Assembly (NCBI GenBank): GCA_002713215.1
Contig: PAVO01000048.1
Span: 1 to 36,251 of the forward strand
Length of the DNA stretch: 36,251 nucleotides
Source of the DNA: Crocinitomicaceae bacterium
Lineage (GTDB): Bacteria; Bacteroidota; Bacteroidia; Flavobacteriales_G; Salibacteraceae
Reading direction: 5' to 3'
Positions 32,556 to 34,269 of this stretch are shown one piece after another. The number at the start of each line of letters is the position of its first letter. Positions within the stretch are counted from its first letter, which is position 1. The notes beneath the pieces are model-generated. The model saw nothing but the letters and a program-made list of their open reading frames with translations. It searched no databases and was not told the DNA's origin. The translations under genes were made by a program, and so were the position numbers.

Positions 32556-33572
32556 TTATTCTTCTAATCTGTCAAAATAGCTCATCATCATATGAGGAAT
32601 TTCTCTCATGTACATTCTATATTCTTTTCTCACCCCATAATATTCTCTCATCATTGGGTGTTCAACGGTAAATTCCATAAGGTGCTTAAAATCAGATATT
32701 GCTTCTTGTTTTTTCTCCTTGCTTGAATGAGATTTGAGAATGTCTAATAATTCTTTTCCTGTATCATAAATCCAAGGAAAATCTTTTTTGAAGAAACTTA
32801 AAGCTATTAGGAATCCATAATGTTTTGAATTAGAACCTGGCATCATATGTATCAATTCTTTAATCATCATTGGATGAAATTTTCGAGACATTCTCCAGAA
32901 ATCAGAATCCTGATTGTGTCGGACAAAATTCCTTTGTTCTTGCAGATTTTGACTTATATACTCTATTGTTTCCAGAAGTTTAGAGTCTGGATTTCGAAGT
33001 AATTTTTGATTACTTCTTGCAAGATCAAGGATCTCTTCTAAAATTTCAGATGTATAGCCATTTTGTTCTTCTTCCTTTGGCACTTCATCATTTACGTCTT
33101 TTAGTTTGTTTAGCTCTTCTTCTAAAGTCGGATACCAAACTTCAAAAGCCTTTTCAAGTCTTGCATCAGCAATGGCAAGTTCTCCACACGCTTTATTAAG
33201 TGTCTTAACCAATTTTTTAATGTCTTCTTTTTGAAAAATGGTGGATTGAAACTGTAGTATTGGTCCATCAACTTCTGACCTTTTAATGTCAAACAAGAAG
33301 GGGCTAACAAAGGACTTATCCATTGTTTTCGATAATGCTCCTGCTTCAAAAGAAAGCCAAGGTGCGTTTAGGTTTTCCTTTGTTACACATAAAATACCGA
33401 AAGTAGAATCTTCAAGTTCGGTTGCTATGTCAGTACTCCATCTTGCACCTTTATCTATATCTTCTGATGATACGTATGGAACAATCGATTGAATGACGGA
33501 AGGAAGCCAGTCTCGGTAAACCAATGCTACCTTATGACTTTTGTTTCCTGACCAGCTTATAAATACTTTCAT
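32556..33572 (-). CDS. TIR-domain protein with C-terminal helical domain
   Basis: 338 residues. The TIR domain spans residues about 1-150: box 1 is MKVFISWSGNKS, and the catalytic-loop pattern NAPWLSFEAGALS places W72 and the candidate NADase glutamate E76. A charged linker (EELNKLKDVNDEVPKEEEQ) and a helical C-terminal domain (about 185-338) with repeated Met/aromatic helices (FHPMMIKELIHMMPG, EYRMYMREIPHMMMSYF) follow; no family recognised for it. TIR proteins of bacteria commonly cleave NAD+ or make cyclic-ADP-ribose signals in defence. The gene is AT-richer than its neighbours (sampled 60-base lines 27-33% GC against 35-52% in lines next to it). No partner gene adjoins it. Confidence 0.85.
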   Translation of the reverse strand: MKVFISWSGNKSHKVALVYRDWLPSVIQSIVPYVSSEDIDKGARWSTDIATELEDSTFGILCVTKENLNAPWLSFEAGALSKTMDKSFVSPFLFDIKRSEVDGPILQFQSTIFQKEDIKKLVKTLNKACGELAIADARLEKAFEVWYPTLEEELNKLKDVNDEVPKEEEQNGYTSEILEEILDLARSNQKLLRNPDSKLLETIEYISQNLQEQRNFVRHNQDSDFWRMSRKFHPMMIKELIHMMPGSNSKHYGFLIALSFFKKDFPWIYDTGKELLDILKSHSSKEKKQEAISDFKHLMEFTVEHPMMREYYGVRKEYRMYMREIPHMMMSYFDRLEE

Positions 33573-33789: not shown

Positions 33790-33854
33790 GCCTTAAACTA
33801 AGGCAAACCCCAATAAAACTAAGGTATCACTTAGTTGAACTAAGGCATGCCTTA
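33790..33854. promoter_or_regulatory. Cluster of AACTAAGG palindromes, 21-bp phased
   Basis: Three direct copies of AACTAAGG(C/T)A begin at 33796, 33817 and 33838, exactly 21 bp apart. They are embedded in palindromes: GCCTTA-AAC-TAAGGC (33790-33804), CTTAGTT-G-AACTAAG (33830-33844) and the perfect 14-mer TAAGGCATGCCTTA (33841-33854). Spacing by two helical turns is typical of cooperative operator or iteron arrays. Confidence 0.65.
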
Positions 33855-34084
33855 TAAATTTTAAGCGGTCTTTGTTTAACAAGGGGCTGTAAAGTAGTCC
33901 GGTAGGGGGATGCCGCAATTTTACTTAACATTACAAGCCTGTAATTTTTGCCCTTTTACGCATTTCCTAAACATGGAACAACATTTTTTACTTCCTTTGA
34001 GCTTATTAACCCATTAAGCAAAAACGAAAGAAAAGGAACGTATACCTTACATATAAGATATAGATAGCGGAAGCTGTTTTTTGT

Positions 34085-34190
34085 AAAGTCAAAAACTGGT
34101 AAATTTTAATACAAAAACAAGAATAGCCGAAGCTCGTGCCGTGGCGCGGGTCGGTTTGTTTTTGTAGGGGTATACCAGTACCTTGACTTT
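34085..34190. repeat. 106-bp nested inverted repeat with GC-rich core
   Basis: Arms from outside in: AAAGTCAA (34085-34092) / TTGACTTT (34183-34190); ACTGGTA (34095-34101) / TACCAGT (34173-34179); TACAAAAACAA (34110-34120) / TTGTTTTTGTA (34156-34166); GCCGA (34126-34130) / TCGGT (34151-34155); CTCGTGCC (34133-34140) / GGCGCGGG (34143-34150), the last with G-U pairs on the plus strand. A degenerate direct copy of ATAGCCGAAGCTC (34123-34135) sits at 34064-34076. It looks like a miniature mobile element, recombination site or structured RNA. Confidence 0.7.
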
Positions 34191-34269
34191 GCAGATTGTA
34201 TTCGCGCCTGCTTTTTTATAAAAACTCAAGAACAACCTAGATTGAATGGATACGTTATTACCATAGAAA

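Follow-up and report, generated by a model that had tools for sequence, protein, structure and literature searches.

In the genome of a Crocinitomicaceae bacterium (GenBank assembly GCA_002713215.1, contig PAVO01000048.1), a large nested inverted repeat occupies a gene-free region between a TIR gene and a T9SS-type gene, which raises the question of what kind of element it is. A preliminary description of this DNA offered three answers, namely a recombination site or cassette border, a structured RNA, and a non-coding RNA of a defence locus. The stretch analysed, hereafter the window, comprises 36,251 nucleotides of this contig. The analysis identifies the inverted repeat at 34085-34190 as the core of a 155-nt structured leader RNA, encoded at 34064-34218 on the plus strand. 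Judging from sequence features, this hairpin probably belongs to a family of leader RNAs that is spread across the Bacteroidota and acts in cis by transcription attenuation.

The hairpin and its genomic surroundings

All five nested arm pairs of the preliminary description are present between 34085 and 34190, and the core is indeed rich in GC (0.77 at 34126-34155 versus 0.39 in the whole window). Two groups of extra bases had been assigned to the left side: GAATA is unpaired as claimed, while the second group is either AA (34130-34131) or AG (34131-34132), depending on the register of pairing. Folded as RNA, the plus strand reaches -58.4 kcal/mol compared with -37.3 +/- 3.5 kcal/mol for dinucleotide shuffles (z -5.95, none of 200 as good); the fold of the minus strand is weaker (z -4.24), again with none of 200 shuffles as good. 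It had been overlooked that a tail and a T-run are part of the feature, which thereby extends over 34064-34218 and ends only 51 nt before the start of the T9SS-type gene. The individual parts are listed in Table 1.

Table 1. Coordinates of the leader RNA, its putative promoter box and the downstream gene in the window
Feature	Position	Strand	Remarks
Promoter-like -7 box TTCCTTTG	33992-33999	+	Putative; one mismatch to TAnnTTTG; 72 nt before the element
5' mini-hairpin AGC-GGAA-GCT	34066-34075	+	5' hairpin of at least 3 bp drawable in 77/79 members, a count without shuffled control
Helix P2, 5' strand	34085-34092	+	Partner 34183-34190; 98.1% of cells paired (79 members); 8/8 pairs change on both sides
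Helix P3, 5' strand (ACTGGTA)	34095-34101	+	Partner 34173-34179; 99.8% of cells paired; 7/7 pairs change on both sides
Helix P4, 5' strand	34110-34120	+	Partner 34156-34166; helices of this region 79-84% paired over 79 members
5-nt bulge GAATA	34121-34125	+	Same-side 5-nt bulges in predicted folds of the C40 and G004:C154 copies
Helix P5, 5' strand	34126-34129	+	Partner 34152-34155 (fold)
Helix P6, 5' strand	34132-34139	+	Partner 34144-34151; P6 91% of cells paired over 79 members
Helix P6, 3' strand	34143-34151	+	Alternative partners: P6 5' strand or tail (helix T)
Helix P5, 3' strand	34152-34155	+	Fold
Helix P4, 3' strand	34156-34166	+	Fold
Helix P3, 3' strand (TACCAGT)	34173-34179	+	Conserved GGGTA and ACCT on its flanks
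Helix P2, 3' strand	34183-34190	+	Covariation over 79 members
Tail	34200-34208	+	Complements 34143-34151 (helix T, 9 bp in the window copy, two G-U)
T6 run (U-tract)	34212-34217	+	Directly after the tail; T run of at least 5 in 68/79 members
Downstream gene, 478 aa	34270-35706	+	C-terminal T9SS type A sorting domain (Por_Secre_tail E 3.2e-10; TIGR04183 E 7e-12)

The 478-aa protein encoded downstream has no relative by sequence among solved structures. The TIR gene on the other side (32556-33572, minus strand) gives a nearly full-length match to PADLOC TIR-TM (E 2.3e-121) and falls just below the cut-off for Pfam TIR_2. It is transcribed divergently, and the leader is directed at the T9SS-type gene; a non-coding RNA serving a defence locus is not supported for this copy. 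Tandem CTAAGG...CCTTAG palindromes occupy 33790-33860, in the interval that separates the leader from the divergent TIR gene, and similar clusters are found upstream of the second leader copy described below and at C34:19733, C39:8678, C39:254401 and C28:16823 of the same genome; they are possibly operator sites or a REP-like repeat.

The source genome contains a second copy of the element at the end of contig C40, which shares 85% identity with the window copy, and no third one among 150 scored candidates. The C40 copy is located just upstream of a coding start, with only 7 nt between T-run and ATG, and the encoded protein begins like the T9SS-type protein of the window (the contig ends within the gene). 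Paralogues of the T9SS-type gene on contigs C8 and C28 have no copy upstream, and the leader is thus not tied to this gene family. Contigs C8 (at its end) and C40 (at its start) break inside genes whose protein starts resemble that of the T9SS-type gene, perhaps because repeated gene copies split the assembly.

A leader RNA family in the Bacteroidota

A plain DNA search of 100 genomes with E-values up to 0.01 produced matches in 13 of them, of which, beyond the source genome, only two in genome G004 were real; nine of 15 weak matches were folded and judged to be chance, and the other six were left unfolded. The two source-genome and two G004 sequences adopt the same fold with many compensatory changes, and the covariance model R1 was built on these four. 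R1 retrieved three further members from 42 genomes of the order, giving seven founders; a weak match in G033 (E 0.0084) was absent from the search with the later model R3 and was dropped. Model R2 matches at least 98 of 395 Bacteroidia genomes at E <= 0.001, among them at least 82 of 339 near-complete ones. R3, built from 79 members, matches 6 of the 42 genomes of the order (a second match in G038 is weak, E 7.9e-5) and at least 67 of 395 genomes of a phylum-wide draw, 21 of which lie outside the Bacteroidia and were not individually inspected. The class-wide R2 and phylum-wide R3 searches scored seven candidates per genome, so these prevalences are lower bounds, and the highest copy number of seven matches per genome is set by the same number.

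The 79 members comprise the seven founders, 69 elements from the class-wide R2 matches listed, two from viral contigs and one from a plasmid. The 69 were picked from the best E-value downward, with the better-scoring G387:C69 and G045:C37 left out, and the members studied are the better-scoring ones of the family. When R2 was run at E <= 1e-4 on 396,458 bases holding the 79 elements, it recovered exactly those 79 and nothing else; this serves as no more than a consistency check, as the elements had been found with R2. A strict pattern applied to 84,980 species proved too narrow and matched only the two G004 records; it was the covariance models that worked. Mean pairwise identity is 0.60 within genomes (33 pairs) versus 0.56 between genomes.

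Among viral contigs, a first pattern gave no match and a second gave two, both of which belong to the 79 members; two queries against phages gave no match, and neither did one of four queries against plasmids. Full-length R3 matches are present on the plasmids pB3-10 of Rhizosphaericola mali (110 bits, annotated gene 59 nt after) and p1 of Chryseobacterium sp. JJR-5R (99 bits, annotated gene 41 nt after). These two copies (loci L186, NZ_CP139138.1, and L187, NZ_CP044017.1), which were outside the training set of every model, precede genes for hypothetical proteins. The third plasmid copy, included in the 79, is carried by a mobilizable plasmid of Chryseobacterium shandongense (L114, NZ_CP033916.1:55674-65770), where the leader has a gene for a LexA-family regulator on one side and, on the other, a short unannotated ORF (DUF6876) and then a T9SS sorting-domain gene. 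The subgroup f56 (L105, L107, L109, L146) starts with GAAGC.TTCGC and has an extra upstream inverted repeat across the promoter region; L105 is located 223 nt ahead of a TonB-dependent receptor gene, L107 and L109 appear alike by reading, and no such gene was found for L146. Taken together, it is close to certain that a conserved leader RNA family exists.

Conservation of an RNA structure on the sense strand

In a MAFFT alignment of the seven founders, 22 pairs are changed on both sides versus 11.0 in shuffles, and the covariation score is 0.534 compared with 0.234 for shuffled alignments and at most 0.165 with partners slid; MAFFT is blind to structure, and the tested structure was taken from predicted folds of the same seven sequences. 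For the 38 model pairs in 79 members, 88.8% of the cells are paired and the score is 0.660 versus 0.200 (shuffled) and at most 0.067 (slid), in an alignment that was fitted to the model and is hence biased towards its structure. P2 and P3 are almost free of non-standard pairs, and several of their positions use all four Watson-Crick types; one such position is U-A in 37 members, C-G in 17, G-C in 16 and A-U in nine, with no exception. P3 is flanked by two conserved internal loops, and GGGTA and ACCT around it may form a further helix, P7, to which a paired fraction of 83.7% lends weak support.

At paired sites, G-U outnumbers A-C by 29:2 in P2 and P3, 112:1 in P6, 129:42 in P4 and P5 and 23:3 in helix T, which indicates that the sense strand folds as RNA and that this is the conserved structure.

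Two helices competing for one strand

The tail following the hairpin complements the 3' strand of P6 over at least 6 bp in 77 and at least 7 bp in 74 of the 79 members. Own tails fit better (score 21.1) than tails swapped between members (18.3 +/- 0.26; 0 of 2000 permutations). Six pairs of the resulting helix T, which are outside the model, are paired in 98.7% of the cells, with 15 double changes versus 2.6 in shuffles. Two of five measures for T, doubly changed pairs (94/500) and pair types (92/500), are no better than shuffles because T is so conserved. P6, paired in 91% of the cells, needs the same strand, and P6 and T are mutually exclusive; one position of the shared strand forms a U-G wobble in P6 in 60 members and G-C in T in 66. 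With loop costs ignored, the T duplex is predicted to be more stable than P6 in 73 of 79 members.

Two conserved, mutually exclusive helices, one of which runs into a U-run before a gene, typify a transcription attenuator, and the element displays exclusive helices, a terminator-like one among them, and a U-run as features of its sequence. Helix T encloses a loop of about 50-60 nt and is separated from the U-run by a few nucleotides, unlike a compact textbook terminator. If P2-P5 are kept, T would create a very long pseudoknot, and without P2-P5 much predicted energy would be lost. Furthermore, the 5' end offers the tail another partner (P1; 79.7% paired, 64 double changes versus 32 shuffled, positions 1-3 covarying with 256-258), so that the role of the tail may be structural. 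Many members have a GGGAC or AGGG motif approximately 15-45 nt after the U-run that could pair with GTCCC of the tail, possibly as a third tail partner or a sequestered start region.

Promoter motif and downstream reading frame

The -7 box consensus of the Bacteroidota is given as TAnnTTTG in the portion of PMC9723704 considered here. This motif occurs within 100 nt upstream of 59 of the 79 members, at two preferred distances, versus 7.7 in shuffles; the control counts are 6/79 on the opposite strand, 5/79 in the next 100 nt and 0/78 downstream. A matching -33 box was not evident upstream of the members. The box of the window fits the cluster of other members at -73 to -54, and the C40 copy has the same eight letters.

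On the other side of the element, a same-strand ATG ORF of at least 100 aa starts within 400 nt in 63 of 76 members, and a divergent ORF flanks the opposite side in 22 of 74. Among the 63 downstream ORFs, 41 start 11-53 nt away and seven inside the tail, and for 15 the distance exceeds 60 nt. In ten of the 79 members, a search for a downstream ATG ORF of 80 aa or more gave no result; the available sequence was at most 1,500 nt for three of these ten and more than 2,000 nt for the other seven. An ATG is located 12-34 nt before the element end in 38 of 79 members; a leader peptide as a general feature was discarded, as this ATG has no consistent frame relation to the gene. In 26 of 79 members the ATG lies exactly 22 nt before the end, and most of these frames read M-S/T-H-A-..., some being fused in frame to the downstream gene. 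Strand-specific covariation, the promoter motif upstream and the gene just downstream bear out the structured RNA among the earlier suggestions.

Genes behind the leader

Of the proteins encoded downstream of the 69 R2 elements, 40 were scanned singly with Pfam, together with those of the window, and all 69 were tallied with PADLOC and NCBIfam (25 commonest families listed). The products are mixed. Some are secreted or surface proteins with T9SS sorting domain, SBBP beta-propeller, PKD, laminin-G-like, ice-binding-like or SprB repeat domains, or are TonB-dependent receptors. DNA methyltransferases and restriction proteins form a minority behind copies in other genomes (type III type in 4/69, as well as types ISP and Eco57I). 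Response regulators follow at least four of 69 elements, and a sigma-70-family factor and proteins of unknown function are also found. No reverse transcriptase family was detected among the 48 proteins scanned with Pfam (eight of the window, 40 from downstream genes). So mixed a regulon would suggest a general signal rather than one metabolite.

Comparison with known RNA and DNA elements

No Rfam 15 family scores at or above its cut-off in the window, and even at E <= 5 none overlaps the element; in 20 further loci, there is no overlap at E <= 1. The best weak hits near the element, U12 and Spy490483c, fall short of their cut-offs and lie outside the hairpin. T-box, SAM and purine riboswitches are leaders with an intrinsic terminator. 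Riboswitch and attenuator leaders share with the element the location in a 5' leader, a conserved core, exclusive helices of which the last precedes a U-run, and a gene directly downstream. The element differs from riboswitch leaders by the missing Rfam 15 match in the members tested and by genes that do not belong to one pathway; moreover, the exchanged strand is at the hairpin tip, which gives the terminator-like helix its long loop. The leader might be a small-molecule riboswitch but is not classed as one here.

Integron attC sites are imperfect hairpins with one-sided extrahelical bases and the end boxes RYYYAAC and GTTRRRY. The element resembles them in its imperfect hairpin, the one-sided extrahelical bases and the unrelated genes adjoining it; however, the box pair is found in none of the 79 members on either strand, and the G-U bias of the sense RNA and the upstream promoter motif set it apart. 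On the single contig of G325, the copies are far apart. UpxY of Bacteroides and LoaP of Bacillus are specialised NusG antitermination factors. Their leaders likewise encode a read-through signal ahead of surface or accessory genes, but no such factor has been linked to the leader RNA described here.

Flavo-1 RNA (RF01705), the nearest to the element in its distribution, is, according to the passages of PMC9723704 considered, a motif of unknown function that is widespread in the Bacteroidota and, like the element, present in many places. Its model has 76 positions, matched a single locus, outside the element (L085:1048-1123), and gave only two matches in the source genome, both below cut-off and on other contigs. 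HMP2_4205, HMP2_1065 and HMP_4078 are described in part of PMC8040213 as palindromic, 80-132 bp long and wholly or mostly from Bacteroidetes, the former two with predicted terminators. They are alike in size and host group and were compared by description only, so overlap is possible, as it is for the GUCCY-hairpin motif in the part of PMC2864571 considered. In the portions of the literature searched, no description of the leader RNA was found; in PMC11109978 and PMC8632094, none of five Bacteroidota name stems was found. The leader RNA has apparently not been described before.

Proposed mechanism and alternative explanations

In the proposed mechanism, transcription would start roughly 20-70 nt upstream and run through the element into the gene behind it. 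The RNA would fold into the long hairpin P2-P6, with P3 and its two flanking internal loops as the conserved part and the GC-rich P6 as expression platform. The 3' strand of P6 has two possible partners, its own 5' strand and, in the terminator-like helix T, the tail. Read-through would result as long as P6 holds, and transcription would stop before the gene once the tail displaces the P6 5' strand; the P2/P3 core may be read by some ligand, RNA or protein that sets the balance between P6 and T. The analysis shows the RNA fold, its strand, its position between promoter motif and gene, and the conservation of the competing pairing; that transcription terminates or reads through, in which direction a switch would work and that a signal exists at all are inferred. 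Besides the long loop of T and the pairing of the tail with the 5' end, the members with no downstream ORF or a distant one count against this mechanism. So do the highly mixed downstream genes, which point to no particular signal, and the -7 box of the window, which deviates from the consensus. A further-reaching proposal, tentative and rather short of likely, is that the family constitutes a new Bacteroidota-wide class of switch RNA that senses one general cell signal. This signal might be a nucleotide, a second messenger or the condition of the transcription apparatus, and strand exchange at the tip would set how strongly surface proteins, DNA methyltransferases, response regulators and a sigma factor are expressed.

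Own promoter motif, terminator-like end (the T-run recorded in Table 1), a length of about 160-230 nt and several copies in many genomes would also suit a small RNA gene whose trans-acting transcript normally stops at the U-run, the gene behind being read only by leak-through or from its own promoter. We regard this as unlikely: a same-strand ORF begins within 60 nt in 54 of 77 cases, and the C40 copy has its ATG almost directly after the T-run, which leaves little room for another promoter. Unlikely, too, is a leader whose P3 core recruits an RNA-binding protein, or a specialised factor of the NusG type, that makes RNA polymerase resist termination. The two conserved internal loops around P3 and the very broad gene set, which is hard to explain by one metabolite, speak for such a protein-bound leader, which differs from the attenuator explanation only in its sensor. 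Improbable as well is one fixed fold without switching, which protects the mRNA 5' end or tunes translation and of which the pairings of the tail with the 5' end (P1) and with P6 are mere parts. The covariation of P1 positions 1-3 with 256-258 and an ATG often 11-53 nt downstream agree with it; however, P6 and T share a strand that is paired in 91% and 98.7% of the cells, respectively, and the predicted greater stability of T in 73 of 79 members suggests an exchange. In a fixed fold, moreover, the T-run would seem to serve no function.

A DNA element, be it a folded site of recombination or transposition or a miniature repeat, is very improbable, even though the long imperfect hairpin with extra bases on one side and the copies on three plasmids and two viral-collection contigs would fit one. 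The large excess of G-U over A-C is unexpected of duplex DNA, the pair of attC-type end boxes is missing in all 79 members, and the family is coupled to promoter and gene; identity within genomes hardly exceeds that between genomes (0.60 versus 0.56). A genome search, suggested earlier as a way to recognise a miniature element, returned not many dispersed copies, as expected of a MITE or REP sequence, but two (150 candidates scored), both of which precede genes with similar starts, and this disfavours a recombination site or cassette border as well. Up to seven matches per genome are found elsewhere, the counts being lower bounds with seven candidates scored per genome. An attenuator remains the preferred reading.

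Implications

About a quarter of the sampled Bacteroidia genomes (at least 98 of 395) carry a large covarying RNA without Rfam match in the members tested. If the leader RNA is an attenuator, very different genes would belong to a common regulon, and whether they respond to a single shared signal becomes a testable question. An attenuator would also provide a practical handle on the control of secreted-protein and restriction-modification genes in environmental bacteria.
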